A stretch of DNA of 46,579 bases from contig JAGCUV010000143.1 in assembly GCA_017962705.1 (NCBI GenBank), positions 1-46,579 of the forward strand, in the 5' to 3' direction. The stretch comes from Bacteroidales bacterium (GTDB taxonomy: Bacteria; Bacteroidota; Bacteroidia; Bacteroidales; UBA932). The position numbers and the translations under genes are program-made. Positions 1,928-18,526 of the stretch are shown one piece after another. Numbering within the stretch: the stretch's first letter is position 1; each line of letters begins with the position of its first letter. Under the pieces are notes generated by a model. The model had not been told where the DNA came from. It saw nothing but the letters and a program-made list of their open reading frames with translations, and made no database searches.

Positions 1928-3469
1928 ATGGACATCACCCAAATCATTCTTTTTTCCGCCGGAAGTTTTATCATAGGAGCGGGAATCGCGTTGGTGTTGG
2001 CCCGTATCGTCATGAAAAAACGCGGAGACAGCATTCTCAAGGCGGCTCGTGAAGAAGCGGAAAACATCAAAAAAGAAAAAATCTTTCAGGCCAAGGAGCG
2101 TTTTCTTCAACTGAAGAGCGAACACGAACAACATATCGCTGAAAAGAACAGGCAGATAGCGGAAGCGGAGAACCGTATGCACCAAAAGCAGAACGCCTTG
2201 AACCAGCAGGCTTCCGAACTGGGACGCAAAAATCACGAAGCGGACCAACTGAAAGAAAGTCTCAAGGTCCGCGAAGACGCCCTGGCCAAACGCGTCCAGG
2301 AATACGAAACCCTTCGGACTGAAGCCATCCGTCAGATGGAGAACCTGGCCGGGATGACCGCCGAGCAGGCCAAAACCCAATTGGTTGAGAGCCTGAAGGA
2401 TGAAGCCCGTACCCAGGCCCAGTCCTACATCAACGAAATGATTGACGAAGCCCGTCTGACGGCCAGTAAAGAGGCCAAACGCATCGTGATTAACACGATT
2501 CAGCGTACTGCAACAGAGACTGCCATCGAGAATGCGGTGACCGTCTTCCATATCGACAGTGACGAGGTCAAGGGACGCATCATCGGTCGGGAAGGCCGCA
2601 ACATTCGTGCGCTCGAAGCCGCTACCGGCGTGGAAATCGTTGTGGATGACACCCCGGATGCGATTTTGCTGTCCGCTTTTGATCCTGTCCGCCGTGAAGT
2701 GGCCCGTCTGGCCCTGCACCAGTTGGTCGTGGACGGCCGTATCCACCCCGCCCGCATCGAAGATGTTGTCGCTAAGGTGAGCAAGCAGCTCGAAGACGAG
2801 ATTATGGAAACGGGCAAGCGTACCTGCATTGATCTGGGCATCCACGGCCTGCATATTGAATTGGTGAAGTTGATCGGTCGAATGAAATACCGTTCTTCCT
2901 ATGGCCAGAACCTTTTGCAGCATTCCCGCGAAGTAGCCAATATTTGCGCCATTATGGCTTCGGAACTGGGCCTCAATCCCAAGATTGCCAAACGTGCCGG
3001 TTTGCTCCATGATATCGGAAAGGTCTCCGAAGACGACCCCGACCTGCCCCATGCCTTGCTCGGTATGAAACTCGCCGAGCAGTACAAGGAAAAACCGGAA
3101 GTGTGCAATTCCATCGGCGCCCACCACGAGGAAGTGGAGATGACTTCTATCTATGCTCCCATCGTATTGGTTGGTGACGCGATTTCCGGTGCCCGTCCGG
3201 GTGCCCGCCGTGAGGTCATCGAATCCTATATCAAGCGTTTGAAAGGGATGGAAAATCTGGCGGCCTCTTACCCGGGCGTGACTAAATCCTATGCCATCCA
3301 GGCAGGGCGCGAGTTGCGTGTGATTGTCGTTGCCGAACAGGTGACCGACCAGCAGGCTGAAGAACTGTCCACCGAAATAGCCAAGCGTATTCAGGATGAG
3401 ATGGTCTATCCCGGTCAGGTGAAAATCACCGTCATCCGTGAAACGCGCAGCATCGCTTTTGCGAAATAA
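1928..3469 (+). CDS. rny: Ribonuclease Y
   Basis: RNase Y is a membrane-anchored endoribonuclease that starts mRNA decay. The 513-residue protein has the full family layout and length: a transmembrane anchor (residues about 4-26), a long charged coiled coil (about 30-190), a KH RNA-binding domain with the [15 protein letters not shown] core (about 215-270) and an HD phosphohydrolase domain with [15 protein letters not shown] and [10 protein letters not shown], which carries the metal-binding His-Asp pair, plus a second GAHHEEVE motif. A strong AGGAGGT precedes the ATG. It follows the 6S-like RNA terminator and so is probably transcribed separately, although no convincing promoter consensus was found in 1841-1913. 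Nothing appears damaged. Confidence 0.97.
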
Positions 3470-5060: not shown

Positions 5061-6110
5061 ATGAAAAAGACAGTTTTGGTATCGGGCGGCGCGGGCTATA
5101 TCGGTAGCCACGTGACCGTAGAATTGATCGAAGCCGGTTATGACGTCGTAGTCGCGGACAATATGTCCAACTGCGATATGACCTGCTTTGAAGGTGTCAA
5201 AAAAATCACGGGAAGGGAAGATATTCCTTTCGTGAAAATGGACTTTTGTGATGAAGCGGCTGTGGAAGAGTTGTTCAGCCGTTTCAAGATTGACGCCGTG
5301 ATTCATTTCGCCGCATTCAAGGCGGTGGGCGAGTCGGTCGCCAAGCCCGTCATGTATTATAAAAACAACCTCGGTTCTTTTCTCAACGTGCTGGAAACTG
5401 CCCAGGCCCATGGAGGATGCAATGTGCTCTTCTCTTCTTCCGCCACCGTCTATGGCGAAGCGGAAAAATTACCCGTAACCGAGCAGTCTCCCCGTTTGCC
5501 GGCGACTTCGCCTTATGGCAACACCAAGCAGATCTGCGAAGATATCTTGCGCGATACGGTCAAGGCTTCCCACGAGGCGGGTGCTACGGGCGCCATCAAC
5601 GGCATCGCCCTGCGTTATTTCAATCCCATCGGAGCCCATCCTTCCGCCCTCATCGGGGAATTGCCGCGCGGCGTGCCCAACAACCTCGTGCCTTTCATCA
5701 CCCAGACGGCCATTGGAAAACGCGAATGCCTGTCCATCTTCGGCAACGACTATCCAACGCCCGACGGCACCTGCCTGCGGGACTATATTGATGTGGTCGA
5801 TTTGGCCAAGGCCCATGTTGCTGCCGTCGCCCGTATGCTGGACGGCAAGATGAAAGCCGATTATGAGATTTTCAACGTCGGTACCGGCCGTCCCGTCTCC
5901 GTGGCGGAACTGGTCAATTCCTTCGAGAAAGTCAATGGCGTCAAACTCAACTATCGTTTTGTGGACCGCCGTCCCGGCGATGTCACCGCGATATGGGCCG
6001 AGACCTCCCTGGCCAATGAAGAACTGGGCTGGAAAGCCGAACGCACCGTAGATGAGACCCTGGCGTCCGCCTGGGCTTGGGAGAAGCATATAGCAGAGAG
6101 CAACAAATAA
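5061..6110 (+). CDS. galE: UDP-glucose 4-epimerase
   Basis: GalE interconverts UDP-glucose and UDP-galactose, using tightly bound NAD. The 349-residue protein shows the Rossmann glycine motif GGAGYIGSH near residue 10, the VIHFAAFKAVGESV block, the catalytic serine region LFSSSATVYGE and the YxxxK pair in SPYGNTK. It also has the GalE-specific ALRYFNPIGAHPSALIGE and GTCLRDYIDVVDLAKAHV blocks. Length matches GalE proteins (about 340). It is preceded by a good promoter and followed after about 15 bases by alaS, so the two may be cotranscribed. Its likely role is supplying galactose-containing surface polysaccharide precursors. Confidence 0.95.
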   Translation: MKKTVLVSGGAGYIGSHVTVELIEAGYDVVVADNMSNCDMTCFEGVKKITGREDIPFVKMDFCDEAAVEELFSRFKIDAVIHFAAFKAVGESVAKPVMYYKNNLGSFLNVLETAQAHGGCNVLFSSSATVYGEAEKLPVTEQSPRLPATSPYGNTKQICEDILRDTVKASHEAGATGAINGIALRYFNPIGAHPSALIGELPRGVPNNLVPFITQTAIGKRECLSIFGNDYPTPDGTCLRDYIDVVDLAKAHVAAVARMLDGKMKADYEIFNVGTGRPVSVAELVNSFEKVNGVKLNYRFVDRRPGDVTAIWAETSLANEELGWKAERTVDETLASAWAWEKHIAESNK

Positions 6111-6125
6111 TTTTTGGAGAAAGAT

Positions 6126-8738
6126 ATGATGACATCGAAAGAGATACGGCAAACATTTCTGGACTTCTTTGCCTCCAAGGGGCACAAAGCGGTTCCGTCC
6201 GCCCCGATGGTGGTCAAGAACGATCCGACCTTGATGTTTACCAATGCGGGGATGAACCAGTTCAAAGATTGGTTTCTGGGCAACAGCGCACCGCGCTACA
6301 AAAGGGTATGCGATTCGCAGAAATGTCTGCGCGTGAGCGGAAAACACAACGATTTGGAAGAGGTGGGCCACGACAGTTACCACCATACGATGTTCGAAAT
6401 GCTGGGCAACTGGTCTTTCGGGGATTATTTCAAGAAAGAAGCCATCGACTGGGCCTGGGAATTGCTGACCGAGGTCTATAAGATTGACAAGAGCATTCTC
6501 TATGCCACGGTGTTCGAGGGCAGTGAAGCCGATGGTACCTCCCTGGATACGGAAGCCCGGGAAGCCTGGCTCAAGTATCTGCCCGAGGATCACGTCCTGC
6601 TGGGCAACAAGCACGACAATTTCTGGGAAATGGGCGATACGGGTCCCTGCGGTCCTTGCTCCGAGATTCACGTGGACCTGCGCAGCGACGAGGAGAAGGC
6701 AGCCCTTCCCGGCCGCGAACTGGTCAATAAGAGCAATCCGCTCGTGATTGAAATCTGGAATATCGTCTTTATGCAATATGAGCGCAAGAGCGACGGTCAT
6801 CTGGAATTGCTTCCCAGCAAGAATGTGGATACGGGCATGGGCTTCGAGCGTCTGTGTATGTTGTTGCAGGGTAAAACCTCCAACTACGATACTGATGTCT
6901 TCACGGGGATGATTGCCCGTATCGAAGCGCTCAGCGCCCACGCTTACCATGAGAGCGAAAAGACGGAAATTGCGATGCGCGTCATCGCCGACCATATCCG
7001 TGCCATCGCTTTTTCCATCGCCGACGGCCAGTTGCCCGGCAATGTCAAGGCCGGCTACGTGATTCGCCGCATCCTGCGACGTGCCGTCCGTTACGGCTTC
7101 ACTTTCCTCGACTTCAAGGAGCCTTTCCTCTGCCGCCTCGTCTCGCAGCTCGTGGATGATATGGGCGCTTTCTATCCCGAAATCGTCAGCCAGCAGAAAT
7201 TGATTGAAAAAGTCATCCAGGAGGAAGAAATGGCCTTCTTGCGCACCCTTGACCGGGGCATCAAGATGATGGATGACCTGATGAAGAAATATGATGCCAC
7301 CAGGTTGATCGGCGGCGCGGATGCTTTCGTCCTGTATGACACCTACGGTTTCCCCATTGATTTGAGCGAACTGATTGCCGCCGAGAATGGCTACAAAATC
7401 GACATTGACGCATTCAATGTGGAGCTGGAGATGCAAAAACAACGCGCCCGCAACGCCGGCAGCATCGAAAGCGGCGACTGGGTGGAGTTTGTCCATTGTG
7501 ATGATGTGGAATTTTCCGGTTATGATTTCACCGAAATCGAAGGGGCGGTCCTGACGCGTCACCGTACGGTCAAGGCCAAGGGCAAGACCCTCTTCCAACT
7601 CGTTTTCGACCGTACGCCTTTCTATGGTGAGATGGGCGGTGAAGTGGGAGATACCGGTTATATCCTTTCCGAGAGTGGAGAAAAAATCGCCATTCTTGAC
7701 ACCATCAAAGAGAACAACCTGACGATTCACGTGGCTGAGCGCATCCCTTCGGATTGCAGCGGGAGTTTCACCTTGGTCGTGGACAAGGAACGTCGCCGCA
7801 AGATTGCGGGCAACCACACCGCGACCCACTTGCTGGACCAGGCCCTTCGCGAAATCCTCGGCACCCACGTCGAACAGAAAGGTTCCTATGTGTGCGACAA
7901 ATATCTCCGTTTCGACTTTTCTCATTTTGAGAGAATGTCGCAGGAGCAGATCCGCAGCGTGGAGAAACGTGTCAACCAGCTGATCCGCGAGAATCATCCG
8001 CTTTGCGAAAAACGCGATGCGACAATGGATGAAGCCAAGCAGATGGGCGCCATCGCTCTCTTCGGCGAAAAATACGGTGAGACGGTCCGTGTGGTGAAGT
8101 TCGGTGATTCCGTGGAACTTTGCGGCGGCTGCCACGCCTCGGCTACGGGCGATATCGGCTTCTTCAAGATTGTTTCCGAGAGCGCTATCGCCGCCGGCGT
8201 CCGTCGGATTGAGGCGGTCAGTGGCGAGCAGGCCGAAGAAATGGTCTATGCCTTGAGTGATACCTTGAATACGGCTCGTTCCTTCTTCAACAATGCGCCC
8301 GACCTGACCCAGGCCCTGCACAAAATGATTGAAGAGAACGACCAGTACAAGAAACAACTGGACCAGATTGCCAAAGAAAAGATGAAAGGCTTCAAGCAGT
8401 TCCTTTATGACCGTGCCGAAGAAGTCAACGGTCACCGTCTGGTCTGCATAGAAGGGGAGCAGGACGCCGCGATGCTTCGCGGCGCCGCGCTGATGTTGCA
8501 AAAAGAAGCCGATAATCTGGTAGTGGCGGCCGCTTATACTTCCGACGGAAAGCCCCAGTTGCTGCTGATGTACTCCCAGGATCTGGTGACGGCCGGCAAA
8601 GATGCGGTCGCCGTGATTCGCGAAGCGGCCAAATGCATCCAAGGCGGCGGAGGCGGCCAGAGCGGGCTGGCTACCGCCGGCGGCCGCAATGCGGAAGGTC
8701 TCAAGGACGCATTGGGTATCCTTAAGGCCAAGGCCTAA
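6126..8738 (+). CDS. alaS: Alanyl-tRNA synthetase
   Basis: This enzyme charges tRNA-Ala in the cytoplasm. It shows the class II motif region FLDFFASKGHKAVPSAPMV, FTNAGMNQFKDWFLG and the GPCGPCSEIH block. The editing domain has HTATHLLDQALREILG (HxxxH) and CGGCHASATGDIG (CxxxH). The C-terminal glycine-rich end is GGGGGQSGLATAGG. At about 870 residues it is full length. The frame is open from a TTG at 6114, but GGAGA at 6116-6120 looks like the ribosome-binding site, so I place the start at the ATG-ATG pair at 6126/6129; MTSKEIRQTF at the second ATG fits family starts equally well. It follows galE closely and is followed by the lptG-fmt frame 13 bases later. Confidence 0.96.
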   Translation: MMTSKEIRQTFLDFFASKGHKAVPSAPMVVKNDPTLMFTNAGMNQFKDWFLGNSAPRYKRVCDSQKCLRVSGKHNDLEEVGHDSYHHTMFEMLGNWSFGDYFKKEAIDWAWELLTEVYKIDKSILYATVFEGSEADGTSLDTEAREAWLKYLPEDHVLLGNKHDNFWEMGDTGPCGPCSEIHVDLRSDEEKAALPGRELVNKSNPLVIEIWNIVFMQYERKSDGHLELLPSKNVDTGMGFERLCMLLQGKTSNYDTDVFTGMIARIEALSAHAYHESEKTEIAMRVIADHIRAIAFSIADGQLPGNVKAGYVIRRILRRAVRYGFTFLDFKEPFLCRLVSQLVDDMGAFYPEIVSQQKLIEKVIQEEEMAFLRTLDRGIKMMDDLMKKYDATRLIGGADAFVLYDTYGFPIDLSELIAAENGYKIDIDAFNVELEMQKQRARNAGSIESGDWVEFVHCDDVEFSGYDFTEIEGAVLTRHRTVKAKGKTLFQLVFDRTPFYGEMGGEVGDTGYILSESGEKIAILDTIKENNLTIHVAERIPSDCSGSFTLVVDKERRRKIAGNHTATHLLDQALREILGTHVEQKGSYVCDKYLRFDFSHFERMSQEQIRSVEKRVNQLIRENHPLCEKRDATMDEAKQMGAIALFGEKYGETVRVVKFGDSVELCGGCHASATGDIGFFKIVSESAIAAGVRRIEAVSGEQAEEMVYALSDTLNTARSFFNNAPDLTQALHKMIEENDQYKKQLDQIAKEKMKGFKQFLYDRAEEVNGHRLVCIEGEQDAAMLRGAALMLQKEADNLVVAAAYTSDGKPQLLLMYSQDLVTAGKDAVAVIREAAKCIQGGGGGQSGLATAGGRNAEGLKDALGILKAKA

Positions 8739-8751
8739 ATCCGGACCGTGA

Positions 8752-11163
8752 ATGAATCGTCTGGACCGCTTCATATTGAAATCGTTCATCGGGCCGTTTG
8801 CCGCGATACTTGTTGTCGTGACATTCATCCTGATGATGCAGTTTCTGTGGCTGTACATAGACGAATTGGTCGGTAAAGGACTCCGTTTTTCCGTCATTCT
8901 GGAATTTCTCGGCTGGGGCGGTATCACCACGCTGCCCCTGTCCCTGCCGCTGGCTTCGCTGCTGGCGTCTATGATGACGATGGGTACCCTGGGCGAGAAC
9001 AATGAATTGCTGGCCATCAAAGCGGCCGGTGTTTCCCTTACCCGCGTGCTGGCTCCCTTGATTGTGGCATCTTTCTTCATCAGTGTGGGAACTTATTTTG
9101 TGAACAACAATCTGGTGCCGCTTGCCTATAACGAGATTTATACCTTGCGGGATGATATCGGTCGGACCAAATCTGAAATCAAGATCCCTTCCGGGACCTT
9201 CTATGACGGCATTGACGGCTATGTGCTGCGGGTGGAGGATCAGGATGACGAAAGCAAGATGATGCATGGGATTATGGTCTATACCCATTCCGCAGGCAAA
9301 GGAAACGTCAGTCTGACCGTGTCTGACTCCGCCCGGATGAGCCTGTCGGCCGACAAGAGTTATCTGTCCTTCGAGATGTTCAACGGCGTATCGTATGAGG
9401 AGACCAACACCCGCCGTTATCGGGATACCACCCTGCAACTGCAGCGTTCCAAATTCTCCCATCAGCAATTGTTCATACCCCTGTCCAACTATGCTTTCCA
9501 GAAGTCGGAAGGCAACCGGTTCAGCGATGAGGTGAACTCGATGACCAACGCCCAGCTGCTGGCCCAGAAAGATTCGCTCGATGCCGCTCAGAACCGCTTG
9601 CTGGCCGCTCAGTACGCCACTTTCATGCGCGACCCGTCTCTGTCCCATCAGTATCAGTTGGATACTGCCCGTCACATCGTCAAGAATCTGAACGCAGAAA
9701 ACCTGCTGATCTTCGAGAGTTTGCAGGCGGAAATGGACGCGGTCAAAAAGGCTTCCCACAAGGCCGGGGATATGTTGTCCGTGCTGACGACATTCAGCCG
9801 GGATTCCTTCCGGGATGTGTATATTCTTCGGCGTACGGATGTGGGTATCCTTAAGAAATGGGCGACGGCCCTGGCCTGTTTCATCTTCTTTTTCATCGGG
9901 GCGCCCATCGGGGCCTATATCCGTAAAGGCGGTCTGGGCTCCTCTGCCATTATATCCGTGCTCTTTTTCGGGGCCTATTGGGTCATCGATATTTCCGGAA
10001 CGAAATTGGCAAAAGACGGAGCGGTGTCGGCGGTCGAAGGGGTGTTTATCTCATCCTATGTACTGATGCCTGTCGGAATGTTCCTGACTTGGAAGGCCAT
10101 CAATGACTCGCCCATCATCAATACGGAACCGATCAAGCGCTTCTTCAAGAAGCTGTGGGATAATATCAGTGGAAAAATGGCCAAGACGAGAATCGTGTTT
10201 ATGGGGACGCCCGAGTTTGCCGTTCCCTCCCTGCAGGCCCTGCTGGATGCCGGCTACAAGGTAGCGGGTGTCGTGACGGTGGCGGACAAACCTTTCGGAC
10301 GGGGAATGAAAGTGGGGGAGAGTGCCGTCAAGAAATTTGCCGTTGAGCGCGGACTGCCGATCTTGCAGCCGGAGTCCCTCAAAGGCGAAGATTTCCTGAA
10401 AGCATACAAGGCGTGGAAACCGGATCTGGCTGTGGTTGTCGCTTTCCGTATGCTGCCTCAGGAGGTATGGGAAGTGCCGCGGCTGGGTACCTTCAATCTG
10501 CACGCGGCCCTGCTGCCCCAGTACCGCGGGGCGGCCCCTATCAACTGGGCCATCATCAATGGGGAAGGAATTACGGGTGTCACTATGTTCAAAATTGACA
10601 GCGGGATGGATACGGGCCATATTATGATGCGGGAAAACTGCCGCATCACGCCCGAAGATACAGCCGGAACCTTGCATGATAAATTGATGGCACTCGGCGC
10701 ACAGCTGGTGCTCCAGACGGTGGACGGCCTGTTGGATGGACAGATTGAGATGCGTCTGCAAAAGAGTTATATCCAAGGCGCAGAAGTGCTCAAACCGGCC
10801 CCCAAAATTACGAAAGAACTGTGTGATGTCGATTGGTCGATGAAGGCCGTGCGGGTGTGTAACCTCATTCGGGGCCTGAGTCCCTATCCGGCCGCTTTTA
10901 CCACGCTGGAGGCGGAAGGCAAGCCGGCTCGCAGCCTGAAGATTTTCTTTGCCCGGGTTCGTCCTTTCGGATTGCCGGATGGCGGGCGACCTGCGCCCGG
11001 AACGGTTTTCAGCGATGGAAAGACTGTTCTGAGCATTGCTTGTGCGGATGGGTGGGCCGACCTGGTTGAGGTGCAACTTTCGGGAAAGAGCCGGATGGGT
11101 ATCGAAGAATTTTTGCGTGGTTTTCACCAGCCGGAACAATACAAGGCCGTGCGCTTGAGTTAA
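8752..11163 (+). CDS. LptG-type permease fused in frame to methionyl-tRNA formyltransferase
   Basis: One uninterrupted 803-codon frame encodes two families. Residues 1-475 are a YjgP/YjgQ (LptF/LptG) permease: an N-terminal hydrophobic hairpin (RFILKSFIGPFAAILVVVTF), a second membrane pair near LPLSLPLASLLASMM, a periplasmic beta-jellyroll region and C-terminal membrane segments (ALACFIFFFIGAPIGAYIRK, then VLFFGAYWVIDISG). Residues 476-803 are a complete Fmt beginning MAKTRIVFMGTPEFAVPSLQ, with the formyl-donor and catalytic region NLHAALLPQYRGAAPINWA and TMFKIDSGMDTGHIM. LptG helps drive lipopolysaccharide transport; Fmt formylates initiator Met-tRNA. No stop separates them, and ATG 10177 is in frame. 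Both termini of LptG are cytoplasmic, so a membrane-tethered Fmt is topologically possible. Internal initiation at 10177 could instead give free Fmt. Confidence 0.85.
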   Translation: MNRLDRFILKSFIGPFAAILVVVTFILMMQFLWLYIDELVGKGLRFSVILEFLGWGGITTLPLSLPLASLLASMMTMGTLGENNELLAIKAAGVSLTRVLAPLIVASFFISVGTYFVNNNLVPLAYNEIYTLRDDIGRTKSEIKIPSGTFYDGIDGYVLRVEDQDDESKMMHGIMVYTHSAGKGNVSLTVSDSARMSLSADKSYLSFEMFNGVSYEETNTRRYRDTTLQLQRSKFSHQQLFIPLSNYAFQKSEGNRFSDEVNSMTNAQLLAQKDSLDAAQNRLLAAQYATFMRDPSLSHQYQLDTARHIVKNLNAENLLIFESLQAEMDAVKKASHKAGDMLSVLTTFSRDSFRDVYILRRTDVGILKKWATALACFIFFFIGAPIGAYIRKGGLGSSAIISVLFFGAYWVIDISGTKLAKDGAVSAVEGVFISSYVLMPVGMFLTWKAINDSPIINTEPIKRFFKKLWDNISGKMAKTRIVFMGTPEFAVPSLQALLDAGYKVAGVVTVADKPFGRGMKVGESAVKKFAVERGLPILQPESLKGEDFLKAYKAWKPDLAVVVAFRMLPQEVWEVPRLGTFNLHAALLPQYRGAAPINWAIINGEGITGVTMFKIDSGMDTGHIMMRENCRITPEDTAGTLHDKLMALGAQLVLQTVDGLLDGQIEMRLQKSYIQGAEVLKPAPKITKELCDVDWSMKAVRVCNLIRGLSPYPAAFTTLEAEGKPARSLKIFFARVRPFGLPDGGRPAPGTVFSDGKTVLSIACADGWADLVEVQLSGKSRMGIEEFLRGFHQPEQYKAVRLS

Positions 11164-12204
11164 ATGATGGGCAAGAAAAACAAGATATATGTCTTCGACC
11201 CGGGCACGCTCGATTATCGTGAGCGGGTGGTTACCTGGCGGGAGCGCGCCGGCCGGGGATGCCTTTTCTTTCTGGGAAGCCTTCTTGTTGCTATCTTTTA
11301 TCTGTGGCTCTATGCCGGAGTCTGGGGCCTTGAATTGCCCAAGACCACCTTTTTGAAAAAACGCAATGCGGAGTGGAGTGGAAAAATGGCCATCATGGCT
11401 TCTCAAATGGAAGATTGCCGCCGGCGGCTCGATGCCCTCAGCCTGCGCGACGACGGGGTTTATAGGACCATCTTCGGAATGACGGAAATCAGCCGGGAAG
11501 AGCGCCTGTCGGGCCTGGGAGGTATCAATCGTTATGCCGAATTGCGGGCGAGCGACCATAGCGGGCATTTGTACAACAATGTCAAGGAACTGGACCTGTT
11601 GACCAAGATGGCTTATGTTCAGAGTAAATCTTACGATGAAGTGGATCAGATGGCCCGGCACAGCGGAGATATTGCTGCTTGTGTGCCGGCCATTCCGCCC
11701 TTTTATCCCGGCATCCGCTTCCGTATGTCCAGCCCTTTCGGTCGTCGGAGCGACCCGCTCTATCACTATAAGAAAATGCACACGGGCCAGGACTTTGCCA
11801 TGGATCCGGGCAATTCGATTTATGCCGTTGGAGACGGGACGGTGGAATCGGTGCGGAACGAGTTGTTCGGCTATGGTAATTCGTTGGTTATCAATCATGG
11901 GTTTGGCTATAAAACCCGCTATGCCCACCTGAAAATGATTCTGGTCCAACCCGGTCAGAAAGTCTGCCGGGGGGATTGTATTGCCCAAAGCGGAAACAGT
12001 GGTAAATCCACCGGTCCGCATTTGCATTACGAAGTGATGTACAAGGGCAATTTTGTCAATCCTGTCAATTATATGGACATGGAGATTCCCCTGGATGAAT
12101 ATGCGCAGATGGTTAAAGCGCGGGAAGAACAGACAGGACTCTCTTCTGACTTGATTCAGCCGGTTCACAAGGACCGCAAGACCATTCACAAACGGAAAAA
12201 ATAG
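11164..12204 (+). CDS. Membrane-anchored M23 (LytM-type) metallopeptidase, first of a tandem pair
   Basis: M23 enzymes cleave peptidoglycan peptides with a zinc ion. This 346-residue protein has a cytoplasmic stub, one transmembrane segment (about residues 33-55, CLFFLGSLLVAIFYLWLYAG), a helical coiled region (about 60-165) and a C-terminal M23 domain. The zinc and catalytic residues appear intact: MHTGQDFAMD supplies the His and Asp, TRYAHLKM supplies another His, and GPHLHYEV gives the HxH. The active domain would face the periplasm. The ATG follows the stop of the lptG-fmt frame directly. The next gene, five bases on, is a diverged paralogue. A short basic tail (HKDRKTIHKRKK) ends the protein. 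It may be a catalytic hydrolase or, with its coiled coil, an amidase regulator. Confidence 0.88.
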   Translation: MMGKKNKIYVFDPGTLDYRERVVTWRERAGRGCLFFLGSLLVAIFYLWLYAGVWGLELPKTTFLKKRNAEWSGKMAIMASQMEDCRRRLDALSLRDDGVYRTIFGMTEISREERLSGLGGINRYAELRASDHSGHLYNNVKELDLLTKMAYVQSKSYDEVDQMARHSGDIAACVPAIPPFYPGIRFRMSSPFGRRSDPLYHYKKMHTGQDFAMDPGNSIYAVGDGTVESVRNELFGYGNSLVINHGFGYKTRYAHLKMILVQPGQKVCRGDCIAQSGNSGKSTGPHLHYEVMYKGNFVNPVNYMDMEIPLDEYAQMVKAREEQTGLSSDLIQPVHKDRKTIHKRKK

Positions 12205-12208
12205 GAAG

Positions 12209-13171
12209 ATGTTCAAGTTTAAGTACAAGCCAACCTATAAACTGGACAGAGACTTTCAAGTCCGGGAGAAGCGCTTGACCGTGACGGACGTGCTGATGAA
12301 GATACTGTTATTCCTGGTCGTGACGGTGTCTCTTTCGCTTGTGTACTACCTCATCTTTGCATTTTTTATTGATACCGATGTGGAAAAACAACTCAAGAGC
12401 GAGAATGGCGCTTACGAAAAACGCTATGAAGAGATGGTAATCCGTTTGGAACGGCTGGAAGATGTGACTTCGGGACTGGAAGACCGGGATGACCGTCTGT
12501 ATGAGAAGATTTTTCACACCAACGCTCCTTTCGACAGCCGGATGGCAAAAGTTTCCTTGCTGGAACTCGGAGACAGTCTGGAAGAAAAGACGCTGGAGGC
12601 CAATACGGCCCGGCGGATTGCCCGTAACGAAGATCGTGCGCGGAGCATTGAGACGAATTTCCACCGGATCTATGAACTCGTTTCCTCTCCTTCTTTTGTA
12701 TGCCCGCCGATGCAATTGCCGTTGGAGCATTTCAGTTATGTCCGGACTGGCGCCGGCGTGGGGACGAAGGTCAGTCCGTTCACCAACGTGCCGACCACCC
12801 ATTACGGTCTGGATATGATGGCGGCTTCGGGAGACCCGGTGCTTTGTGTCGCGAACGGAGTGGTTTCCAAGGTGATACACTCACGCAAGAAGCAGGGCAA
12901 CCAGGTTATCATCGAACATGCCGGAGGGTATCGTACCAGCTATGCCCATCTGGCCGAAATCAAGGTACGTCAGGGAATGCGGGTGAAAAAAGGACAGGTG
13001 ATAGCGACTGTCGGTATGTCCGGCAACTCTTTTGCACCGCATTTACATTATGAAATCATGCGCGATACTCTGACTTTGGATCCTGTTTCCTATTTTTTCA
13101 AAGATTTGATGCCGGATGAGTATGCCGATATGGTCATTCTTTCCGCCAGTACGGGACGTTCCATGGATTGA
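12209..13171 (+). CDS. Membrane-anchored M23 (LytM-type) metallopeptidase, second of a tandem pair
   Basis: This 320-residue protein has the same layout as its neighbour. It has a positively charged cytoplasmic start (MFKFKYKPTYKLDRDFQVRE), a transmembrane segment at about residues 31-53, an acidic coiled coil (about 58-165, VEKQLKSENGAYEKRYEEMV) and an M23 domain. The domain has THYGLDMM (His and Asp), SYAHLAEI and APHLHYEI (HxH), so the zinc site looks complete. Similarity to the preceding gene is clear in architecture but limited in sequence, suggesting an old duplication. This copy is closer to the single M23 gene usually found beside alaS and a MerR regulator in Bacteroidales. AGGAAG precedes the ATG. 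Confidence 0.88.
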   Translation: MFKFKYKPTYKLDRDFQVREKRLTVTDVLMKILLFLVVTVSLSLVYYLIFAFFIDTDVEKQLKSENGAYEKRYEEMVIRLERLEDVTSGLEDRDDRLYEKIFHTNAPFDSRMAKVSLLELGDSLEEKTLEANTARRIARNEDRARSIETNFHRIYELVSSPSFVCPPMQLPLEHFSYVRTGAGVGTKVSPFTNVPTTHYGLDMMAASGDPVLCVANGVVSKVIHSRKKQGNQVIIEHAGGYRTSYAHLAEIKVRQGMRVKKGQVIATVGMSGNSFAPHLHYEIMRDTLTLDPVSYFFKDLMPDEYADMVILSASTGRSMD

Positions 13172-15973: not shown

Positions 15974-16272
15974 TGAAAGAGGATTCGTATAAGGGTTGTT
16001 CTGCGTGTCACGCACAATTCCTGTGCGGCCGGCGTGAGGAAGATAGGGAGCAAGCCTGTTCCTTGCCTGTTTCTTTGGCGCATAAAGCCGTGCGCATTTC
16101 CTACGTTTATCCGATTTTGCTTTTTCTGGCCATTTTGTGCGGCGTGAGCGCAGCGGGCCTTGCCGAAGGCTGGGCAGCGTTGTGCGCTTTTGCCGTCCTC
16201 GGCCTGTATTATTTGGTTTTGCGCCTGATGCGCGCGAAATGGGAAAAATTATTTACCAATAAATCATTATGA
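15973..16272 (+). CDS. Short RseC/MucC-like membrane protein upstream of rnfB
   Basis: This 99-residue protein has a cysteine cluster near the N-terminus (GCSACHAQFLCGRRE), then two transmembrane segments (about residues 44-60 and 65-83). This resembles the SoxR-reducing-system/RseC family, whose members often sit directly before rnf genes and are thought to help maintain or tune the Rnf complex. The usual N-terminal beta-strands before the cysteines are missing: the frame has no ATG between a TGA at 15928 and this one. Its start overlaps the dnaB stop and its stop overlaps the rnfB ATG. Family assignment is moderately sure. Confidence 0.7.
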   Translation: MKEDSYKGCSACHAQFLCGRREEDREQACSLPVSLAHKAVRISYVYPILLFLAILCGVSAAGLAEGWAALCAFAVLGLYYLVLRLMRAKWEKLFTNKSL

Positions 16273-17159
16273 TGTCAAGTGCAATAATCACGACGGTTGT
16301 ATTGCTGACCGTGTTGGGTGCCTTGCTGGCCATCATCTTGTATGTGGTCGCCTCCAAGTTCAAAGTGGAGGAGGATCCACGTATCGATGAGATTGAGAAA
16401 GTGATGCCGGGCGCCAATTGCGGCGGTTGCGGTTTTGCCGGTTGCCGGGCTTTTGCCCAATCCTGCGTGGAGAAGGGGAATGTGGATGAGAACTTCTGTC
16501 CGGTCGGCGGTAACGAAGTGATGAAAAAAGTGGCGGCCGTTTTGGGAATTGAAGCGACGGCCAAGGCTCCGATGGTGGCGGTGGTGCGCTGTAACGGGAC
16601 TTGTGAGGCCCGTCCCCGCATCAATGTGTATGATGGCAAACTTTCCTGTCGTGTGAAAGCCTCGCTGTACAGCGGCGACACCGGTTGCGCCTACGGTTGT
16701 GTGGGCTGCGGCGATTGCGTGGCCGCCTGTCCTTTCGGCGCGCTGTCGATGGATGCGGAAACCGGCCTGCCCGTGGTGGATGAAAACCTCTGCACCGCTT
16801 GCGGCAAATGCGTGAAGACCTGTCCCAAAGGCATTATCGAACTGCGCAACAAAGGCCCGCGCGGCATGCGCGTGTATGTGCGCTGCAGCAACAAGGAGAA
16901 AGGCGGTATCGCCCGCAAGGCCTGCCAGTCGGCTTGTATCGGCTGCGGGAAGTGCGCCAAGGTGTGTACCCATGAGGCCATTGCGGTGGAGAACAACCTG
17001 GCATATATCGATTTTACCAAGTGCAAGTTGTGCAAGAAGTGCGTGACGGAGTGCCCGACCGGAGCCGCTGTCGCCGTGGGCTTCCCCGTCAAGCCGGCTC
17101 CCAAACCGGTGGCCCAGCCTGCGGCCGAAGCTCCCCAAACCCCTAAAAACGAAGCGTGA
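16269..17159 (+). CDS. rnfB: Rnf electron transport complex subunit B
   Basis: RnfB carries electrons between ferredoxin and the membrane Rnf complex. The 296-residue protein has an N-terminal membrane helix (residues about 3-26), a 4Fe-4S domain with GANCGGCGFAGCRAFAQSC and a distal CPVGG. Four ferredoxin-type clusters follow: GCVGCGDCVAACPFGAL, LCTACGKCVKTCPKGI, ACIGCGKCAKVCTHEAI and KCKLCKKCVTECPTGAA. The C-terminus is proline- and alanine-rich. ATG codons at 16269 and 16272 are both possible. The gene overlaps the RseC-like gene upstream, and its TGA overlaps the start of rnfC, as expected for a tightly coupled operon. Confidence 0.95.
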   Translation: MMSSAIITTVVLLTVLGALLAIILYVVASKFKVEEDPRIDEIEKVMPGANCGGCGFAGCRAFAQSCVEKGNVDENFCPVGGNEVMKKVAAVLGIEATAKAPMVAVVRCNGTCEARPRINVYDGKLSCRVKASLYSGDTGCAYGCVGCGDCVAACPFGALSMDAETGLPVVDENLCTACGKCVKTCPKGIIELRNKGPRGMRVYVRCSNKEKGGIARKACQSACIGCGKCAKVCTHEAIAVENNLAYIDFTKCKLCKKCVTECPTGAAVAVGFPVKPAPKPVAQPAAEAPQTPKNEA

Positions 17160-18526
17160 TGGAGAATCTGAGTACCTTTTCCATCGGAGGCGTTCACCCC
17201 GATGACCGAAAAATCTCCCGGGACTGTCCCATTGAGGTGCTGCCCCTGCCCGACAAAGTATTTGTCTCAATGGCCCAACACCTGGGCGCTCCGGCCAAGC
17301 CCCTGGTCGTCCCCGGCGACACCGTCAAGGTGGGTCAGCTGATCGCTGAGCCCGGCGGCTTTATTTCCGCCTGTGTTCATTCTCCCGTGAGCGGAACCGT
17401 CAAATCGGTCGGTCTTCGCGAAGATCTTGCCGGCAACAAAGTCACCCATATCGAGATTGTCGTGGAAGGGGATAAATGGGAAGAAAGCATCGACCGTACG
17501 CCAGATTTGGTGACGGAACTTCCCGAAGACAAAGCCTGGATTCTCGACCGCATCAAACAGAACGGCGTAGTCGGTCTGGGTGGCGCTACCTTCCCCACGC
17601 ACGTCAAACTGGCCCCGCCTCCGGGCAAGACCGCAGACTTCCTGTTGATTAATGGCGCCGAGTGCGAACCCTACCTGACCAGCGACTACCGCGTGATGAT
17701 GGAAAGGGGAGCCGAAGTGCTGGTGGGCGCAGCCTTGATGCAAAAAGCGTTGGACGGCCCCCGCTGCATCATCGGCATCGAAGAAAACAAGCCCGAAGCC
17801 ATCGACCATCTTTCCGAACTGCTGTCGGGCCTGGCCGACCGCAATCCTGCCTATCGCCATATCGAAATCCGTCCTTTGAAGAAAAAATATCCTCAGGGCG
17901 GTGAAAAGCAACTGATCGACGCCCTGACCGGCCGTCAAGTGAAGTCGATGGGGCTTCCCATCGATGTGGGAGCGGTGGTCCAGAATATCGGAACGACCCT
18001 GGCCGTGTATGAAGCGGTTCAGAAGAACAAACCTCTGATTACCAATGTGCTGACCGTGACAGGCGATTGCCTCCCGGTCGAAAGGCAGCACAACTACTTG
18101 TTCCGCATCGGCGTTCCCTTGTCCTTCATTATGGAGCAGGCGGGAGGAGTGCCCGAAGGAGCGGAAAAAATCATCAGCGGCGGTCCGATGATGGGCAAAG
18201 CGGTTGCCCGGGTGGATGCCACCACGGTAAAAGGCTCATCCGCCATTCTGTACCTCACCGGAGAGCAGACACTCCGTCGTCCCGAAGGCCCCTGCATCCG
18301 TTGCGGCCGTTGCGCCGATGCCTGTCCGATGGGCCTGGAGCCCTTCCTGCTCAAGAAACTGGCCGAAGCGGGCGACTTCACGGCGCTCGAGAAGAATGCC
18401 GTGCACGACTGTATCGAATGCGGCTGCTGCCAGTATTCCTGCCCGGCTAACCTGTCCTTGCTCGATACCATCCGTATCGCCAAAGGCGATATGTTGCGAA
18501 TCATCAAATCAAGACCTAAAAATTAA
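17159..18526 (+). CDS. rnfC: Rnf electron transport complex subunit C
   Basis: RnfC is the peripheral cytoplasmic subunit that handles NAD(H), FMN and two 4Fe-4S clusters. The 455-residue protein has the N-terminal barrel-sandwich region (VVPGDTVKVGQLIAEPGGFI), the NuoF-like nucleotide-binding core (NGVVGLGGATFPTHVKL, then LINGAECEPYLTSDYRVM) and an SLBB domain (NVLTVTGDCLP). The C-terminal clusters are CIRCGRCADACPMGLEP and CIECGCCQYSCPANLSLLD. The frame extends one codon to a GTG at 17156, but ATG 17159 (MENLSTFSIGGVHP) is the better start and gives a one-base overlap with rnfB. Confidence 0.96.
   Translation: MENLSTFSIGGVHPDDRKISRDCPIEVLPLPDKVFVSMAQHLGAPAKPLVVPGDTVKVGQLIAEPGGFISACVHSPVSGTVKSVGLREDLAGNKVTHIEIVVEGDKWEESIDRTPDLVTELPEDKAWILDRIKQNGVVGLGGATFPTHVKLAPPPGKTADFLLINGAECEPYLTSDYRVMMERGAEVLVGAALMQKALDGPRCIIGIEENKPEAIDHLSELLSGLADRNPAYRHIEIRPLKKKYPQGGEKQLIDALTGRQVKSMGLPIDVGAVVQNIGTTLAVYEAVQKNKPLITNVLTVTGDCLPVERQHNYLFRIGVPLSFIMEQAGGVPEGAEKIISGGPMMGKAVARVDATTVKGSSAILYLTGEQTLRRPEGPCIRCGRCADACPMGLEPFLLKKLAEAGDFTALEKNAVHDCIECGCCQYSCPANLSLLDTIRIAKGDMLRIIKSRPKN

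Follow-up and report, generated by a model that had tools for sequence, protein, structure and literature searches.

The window, by which we mean the whole stretch of 46,579 nucleotides analysed here (contig JAGCUV010000143.1 of the Bacteroidales assembly GCA_017962705.1), carries on its forward strand a single open frame of 803 codons, running from ATG 8752 to a stop codon that ends at 11163. From its N-terminus, the encoded chain is a permease of the LptF/LptG type, then a linker of about 34 residues, then a complete methionyl-tRNA formyltransferase (Fmt). The features of the locus are:

6114..8738, + strand: upstream neighbour, a frame that we take to be alaS (alanyl-tRNA synthetase); it ends 13 bases before the fused gene
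8752..11163, + strand: fused gene, 803 codons, LptF/LptG-type permease plus linker plus Fmt
8767..10095, + strand: LptF_LptG permease part (Pfam), matched in two stretches (8767-9597 and 9595-10095)
10099..10185, + strand: linker, on average cationic and amphipathic, dN/dS 0.11
10156..10200, + strand: start-like region around ATG 10177, with weak predicted structure (−3.5 kcal/mol over 45 nt), A making up 45% of the 20 upstream bases, and a start score of 0.91
10177..10179, + strand: ATG, probable second (embedded) start of a predicted free Fmt of 328 residues
10177..11163, + strand: Fmt part, with Formyl_trans_N at 10189-10719 and Formyl_trans_C at 10804-11124
10495..10611, + strand: Fmt active-site region with N582, H584 and D620, invariant columns in 48 aligned fused proteins, placed by alignment with E. 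coli Fmt

The ATG at 10177 encodes residue 476, and the frame check agreed with an earlier note on this DNA in that this codon is in frame and no stop occurs upstream of it. The permease part scores 213.7 bits against the Pfam family LptF_LptG (cut-off 27.9), with the best stretch at residues 6–280. The note had named this part LptG; the permease family stands, while the choice of LptG over LptF is not settled by the sequence. With the NCBIfam models, 135.4 bits were obtained for LptF (cut-off 230) and 82.3 bits for LptG (cut-off 240). Since the match to LptF is the better one, yet neither cut-off is reached, we call the permease LptF/LptG-type and use ‘lptG’ as shorthand. Solved LptF and LptG chains match it weakly, the best being 6mit_F (E 2.8e-8). 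Permeases of the LptF/LptG type have six membrane helices and both ends in the cytoplasm, the cytoplasmic position of the C-terminus being seen in LptF/LptG structures. Hydropathy analysis called five regions (residues 16–34, ~87–117, 364–390, 394–412 and 427–445); the expected second helix was not called.

Both Pfam formyltransferase domains were found in the second part, at residues 480–656 and 685–791, the C-terminal one being PF02911. This part passes the cut-off of the NCBIfam equivalog model for fmt (TIGR00460; 243.2 bits, cut-off 201.5), and its best match in the Protein Data Bank, nearly full length, is E. coli Fmt (1fmt; E 7.2e-64). The catalytic Asn/His/Asp set was correctly recognised beforehand: N582, H584 and D620, the residues with catalytic roles, align with E. 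coli Fmt and are invariant in 48 of 48 aligned fused proteins. The Fmt part thus scores as a true Fmt and is predicted to formylate Met-tRNAfMet.

The fused gene is followed by two genes in tandem (11164-13171), presumably M23-peptidase-like. In 52 of 80 named relatives this pair is inverted and found on the far side of alaS, and 9 of 80 share the window's order. Further away, 1928-3469 (+) encodes an RNase Y-like protein (RNase_Y_N, KH and HD domains), behind which an S13 peptidase gene lies on the opposite strand, and the region 16269-18526 (+), with a ferredoxin-type protein giving many 4Fe-4S matches and then an RnfC-like protein, probably opens an Rnf gene block. Two long frames lie antisense to coding genes, 5469-9080 (−; 1203 codons) and 10051-12228 (−; 725 codons); they probably reflect codon use rather than real genes.

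The junction lies in one open frame in 93 of the 101 genomes of the genus Candidatus Cryptobacteroides. The match crosses the junction along most of the protein in 92 of the 101, and in one more (G025) it crosses in one frame with the LptG part broken further upstream. For the remaining eight, the gene is cut at contig ends in three (G004, G010, G093) and absent in five (G014, G046, G047, G062, G082). These fusion counts, and those for the family below, were tallied by hand from the match tables, and the frames were rechecked by script for the loci that were fetched. No separated lptG and fmt genes occur among the 93 genus genomes with a resolvable junction; three hits with a stop, suspected to be splits (G097, G043, G058), proved to have one open frame across the junction. 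All 80 named records carry the fused frame.

Some members of the genus deviate elsewhere in the gene. An insert late in the C-terminal domain of Fmt seems to be present in L047 (G090), G017, G019, G027, G033, G042, G049 and G081, in which the match is split near query residues 720–748 and the frames have 852–862 codons. One genome (G059; contigs C164 and C90) holds two different full-length fused genes with 62% and 60% identity to that of the window, either a duplicate or a mixed assembly. In L060 (from G025) and in G144:C48 the LptG part is in two pieces in different open frames, through assembly error or decay.

The search for homologues that the note had proposed thus finds the joined frame conserved throughout the genus as well as in eight further genera of the family, and a fusion is borne out by more than 90 genus genomes together with those genera. 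Close relatives that always had the two genes apart would have spoken against it; within the genus every resolvable junction is joined, and separate genes are seen in more distant genera of the family. The note had also considered that a sequencing or assembly error removed a stop codon. The window's assembly is fragmented and incomplete (146 contigs, 79.6% complete), which leaves room for such an error; the same open junction nevertheless recurs in 93 genus genomes, in the eight other genera and in named records from many studies, with diverged linkers, and this refutes an error, whose chance we regard as practically nil. The joined state, recurring across the genus and eight other genera, is beyond chance.

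The fused gene is also the only match to Fmt over the cut-off in the window's genome (79.6% complete), in which a partner LptF/LptG gene is found elsewhere (G000:C12:26124-27173; 239.1 bits) and peptide deformylase gives two matches. Among 24 genus genomes searched for Fmt, none yielded a second one over the cut-off. Of 19 genus genomes searched, 16 had an Fmt above the cut-off, each time as the fused gene alone, and the other formyltransferase-like matches in genus genomes, considered as a spare Fmt, do not exceed 70.5 bits. The five genus genomes without the fused gene have no Fmt over the cut-off either; one other LptF/LptG gene remains in four of them, and none was found in G082. This fits a gap at this locus. 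Two of the five, G047 and G082, are nevertheless rated 95% complete, and a real loss is possible in these.

Within the family the fusion occurs in 79 of 199 genomes and 9 of 25 genera among the matches listed. By genus, again among the matches listed, it was found in 19/19 (g1), 3/3 (g17), 18/18 (g16), 18/18 (g15) and 17/18 (g6) genomes, and in the smaller samples in 1/1 (g5), 1/1 (g3), 1/3 (g2) and 1/3 (g23). The single non-fused genome of g6 has no Fmt over the cut-off. The other 120 of the 199 genomes are separate or unresolved among the matches listed.

At most of the other family loci examined, lptG and fmt touch. The position aligned with Met476 lies between 14 nt inside and 20 nt behind the lptG stop codon in 14 separate family loci, and in two separate loci (L070 and L074) the genes overlap by 4 nt, an arrangement given as typical of translationally coupled gene pairs in PMC10666635. 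Separate genes that do not touch are found in G106 and G107 (g7, g8), with matches about 1.7 kb apart, and in family f113, with fmt more than 1.2 kb behind lptG (L162, L169, L199); in G108, G119 and G124 (g9, g20, g24) the LptG and Fmt matches are on different contigs. Upstream of lptG-fmt, alaS is present at 76 of 80 fused loci from named records, at 21 of 22 from the other fused genera and at 20 of 30 where the genes are separate; none was found at the loci of g14, g21, g23, g25 and f113, the flanks being short at some of these.

Outside the family, no fusion was detected in 387 genomes from 119 other families of the order, where the best match had an E-value of 3.9e-109; the weakest full-length fused match inside the family, among the matches listed, had 1.4e-219. 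In the phylum (395 genomes), 1e-110 was reached by the window's own genome only. Both searches scored the best two candidates per genome. Among plasmid records, 0 of 354 matching records cover 80% of the query in one place. Several long frames were followed up and rejected as fusions. Those of G189, G254 and G274 (820, 849 and 875) contain a stop between the parts in the sequence, hence separate genes; of those in G405, G500 and G579 (918, 965 and 931), G405 has stops after lptG, and in G500 and G579 the matches are on different contigs.

A tree of LptG plus Fmt with 73 rows showed at least four changes between the fused and the separate state, a count that does not tell gains from splits. This was a quick tree for which LptG was taken up to about residue 468, hence with part of the linker included. 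The fused rows fall into g1 with g17, into g16, g15, g3 and g5, into g6 with one row of g2, and into one row of g23 nested among separate ones; g10, with separate genes, branches off beside the first two of these groups, with weak support. In our reading, at least three gains are the shortest (parsimony) solution, with separate genes in all outgroups, and in this group of uncultured gut bacteria the fusion apparently arose more than once. The ancestor would have had touching or overlapping lptG and fmt genes, as the sister genera have today, and loss of the stop codon, or a shift bringing fmt into frame, would have joined them into a single chain of about 800 residues.

The length of the linker differs between groups. 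Counted from aligned residue 450 to the M of the MGTP motif it measures 34 or 35 residues in 110 of 120 distinct fused proteins (those of g1, g17 and the named relatives), 45 in seven of g16 and g15, and 48, 40 and 37 in one each. Its dN/dS is 0.110 (51 separate close pairs), as compared to 0.051 at the end of LptG and 0.050 in Fmt, so that judged by its substitutions the linker behaves as protein under purifying selection. Synonymous sites change no more slowly in it than elsewhere (pS 0.61 vs 0.55 and 0.59). Its mean net charge over 134 genes is +5.1. Its hydrophobic moment is 1.30, compared with 0.68 elsewhere (sd 0.26). Such a linker could form a cationic amphipathic helix that follows the last membrane helix and lies on the membrane's inner face.

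Cleavage of the fused chain within the linker would release a normal permease and a normal Fmt, and the fusion would then be a way to 1:1 production. The weaker constraint on the linker relative to its neighbours (dN/dS 0.11 vs 0.05) agrees with this; a length held to 34–35 residues in 110 of 120 proteins does not, and the junctions, by inspection, lack a strictly kept motif. We regard cleavage as very improbable.

Internal initiation at 10177 had been proposed in the earlier note as an alternative to the fusion. It cannot replace the fusion: with no stop between the parts, any translation of lptG has to continue into Fmt and yield the fused chain. As an addition to the fusion, internal initiation is favoured by sequence statistics, which we compiled on 134 distinct fused genes. 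Group A (n=85, the window included) has an ATG 7–15 codons before the M of MGTP, group B (n=28) has no ATG, GTG or TTG 6–22 codons before MGTP, and group C (n=21) lies in between. Junction alignments of the fused proteins show that the Met encoded at 10177 is not conserved.

In the linker, A at the third codon position occurs at 1.52 times the frequency expected from the gene's own codon use in group A, 1.20 in B and 1.10 in C, with 2.07 at the true lptG start. This excess is not confined to the linker, since it is also raised just upstream in LptG, at codons −60 to −35 (1.22, 1.40 and 1.43 in A, B and C). The window taken alone has the expected count of third-base A upstream of ATG 10177 (2 vs 1.8). 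The linker is lysine-rich, and its A content is therefore partly driven by the protein, which does not apply to the tests against shuffled sequences.

In these tests, mRNA structure around the linker ATGs of group A is weaker than in synonymous shuffles by 1.70 kcal/mol (se 0.20), whereas control ATGs are more structured than their shuffles (−1.01 kcal/mol for 400 in LptG and −0.47 for 400 in Fmt). At the same place the effect is absent in B (−0.34, error 0.53) and C (−0.59, error 0.59). The start-like region of the window, 10156..10200, is likewise less structured than its synonymous shuffles at that place. When the open reading frame was scanned in steps of five codons, structure was on average weakest in the linker for A (−2.7 vs a mean of −8.2) and not for B, and group C had an open stretch of its own further up, at −25 to −30. 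A regression including GC3 left an ATG effect of 1.59 (0.31). Comparison of tree-independent pairs gave a weak link between the ATG and open structure (9 pairs; mean of 3.7 agreeing and 0.4 disagreeing; median p 0.25).

With −2.70 kcal/mol and 51% A, the linker ATGs resemble 27 separate fmt starts (−2.31 kcal/mol, 46%) and differ from 1900 other internal ATGs (−8.70 kcal/mol, 24%). Weak mRNA structure and A at −3, −6, −12 and −13 are initiation determinants in a member of the Bacteroidota, according to PMC6847099. The frequencies of A at these positions are 0.69, 0.72, 0.82 and 0.44 for the 85 linker ATGs, as opposed to 0.37, 0.39, 0.24 and 0.15 for 1904 control ATGs. ATG 10177 of the window has A at −3 and −12, and not at −6 (G) or −13.

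Using 118 lptG starts and 2977 internal ATGs for training, we built a start classifier with an AUC of 0.887 in cross-validation and false-positive rates of 0.20 (p>0.5) and 0.018 (p>0.9). It assigned p>0.5 to 25 of 25 ATG starts of separate fmt genes and p>0.9 to 18 of them. A start-like codon at p>0.9 was found in 75 of 134 junctions, compared to 0 to 9 of 134 at each of seven control blocks. The ATG of the window scores 0.91 and is itself weakly structured and A-rich (−3.5 kcal/mol, 45% A). Group B is not wholly free of possible starts, since a start-like codon reaches p>0.9 in 9 of its 28 genes, in six of them as an ATG further upstream. Conversely, even at p>0.5 no start-like codon lies 5–40 codons before MGTP in 20 of the 134 fused genes, and six genes (L055, L215, L217, L219, L220 and L225) have no ATG, GTG or TTG at all in that interval.

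These latter genes bear on a further explanation, in which only the joined protein is made and a membrane-tethered Fmt is the cell's sole form. The 20 genes and the six among them favour it, as does a linker whose length is nearly fixed in the genus and which is amphipathic and under purifying selection; against it, the linker ATG of the window and of most fused genes bears the marks of a real start. As a general account we consider it rather unlikely. In the six genes without start codons, however, Fmt would exist only within the permease, barring unusual start codons or cleavage.

The reading that we favour, with some reserve, is that the fusion is real and is probably read from two starts, so that one gene would give two products and stand part-way to a full fusion. 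A ribosome starting at 8752 must make the permease with Fmt hanging from its C-terminus. In most Cryptobacteroides, including the window, the start region is kept as an A-rich, weakly structured ATG and, judging by the statistics above, would probably yield free Fmt too; the organism of the window may thus make both products. Lineages without ATG, GTG or TTG in that place would have Fmt only as part of the permease, as far as can be seen from the DNA. The anchored Fmt presumably works. The free form may have bridged the change, and once the fused Fmt was active enough the inner start could be lost. More tentatively, and with somewhat less than an even chance in our view, a touching gene pair was joined several times in one family, the inner start was first kept (giving tethered and free Fmt) and later lost, and in some species all initiator formylation would be performed by an Fmt anchored to a subunit for LPS export.

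A benefit from the tether itself would offer another explanation: it could set Fmt at the inner membrane near ribosomes making membrane proteins, or tie formylation to LPS export. Formylation placed beside the LPS exporter is feasible, and the repeated changes of state on the tree (at least four, by parsimony at least three gains) and the lack of any split in the 93 genus genomes would suit an advantage. Touching genes, however, make repeated fusion easy without one, most fused genes still have start-like sites from which free Fmt could be made, which suggests that tethering is not strictly needed there, and we know of no functional link between Fmt and the LptF/LptG permease. We therefore think an adaptive tether improbable. 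Under the fusion read twice, the tether would most likely be mostly neutral, tolerated rather than a new device, and eased by the touching of the genes.

If the only detectable Fmt of a cell is part of a membrane protein, this would show that Fmt can work anchored, and the lineage would provide a natural test of whether the place of Fmt in the cell matters. The series from touching genes to fused genes with an inner start and on to fused genes without it would make a stepwise, near-neutral route of fusion directly testable. Automatic annotation of these genomes may give such a gene a name that covers one function and overlooks the other.

A search of the open-licence literature returned no report of an LptG-Fmt fusion. 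Fmt, usually regarded as a free enzyme of the cytosol, readies the initiator tRNA for translation. With E. coli Fmt (1fmt) the second part shares a nearly full-length match, both domains and a score above the equivalog cut-off; it differs in having no stop in front, its N-terminus running on into a permease, and in a start codon that is variable or absent in relatives. As with the LptF and LptG permeases of the LptB2FG exporter, the first part scores over the Pfam LptF_LptG cut-off and matches the solved chains, if weakly, but here some 475 residues are matched in two stretches, stay below the equivalog cut-offs and carry a whole enzyme on the C-terminus. Fusions of the ArnA type, which also appeared among the family and structure matches, likewise join a formyltransferase domain to another enzyme. 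ArnA acts on sugars, whereas the domain described here scores as a true Fmt and its partner is a subunit of a membrane exporter. Overlapping coupled gene pairs, as treated in PMC10666635, resemble the separate relatives in the family, whose genes touch and in L070 and L074 overlap by 4 nt; the window differs in lacking a stop, so that termination followed by restart does not apply and a second start would be reached on its own. Both proteins are well known, as is the fusion of neighbouring genes; the novelty lies in the joining of these two, in its probable recurrence and in the retention of an inner start.
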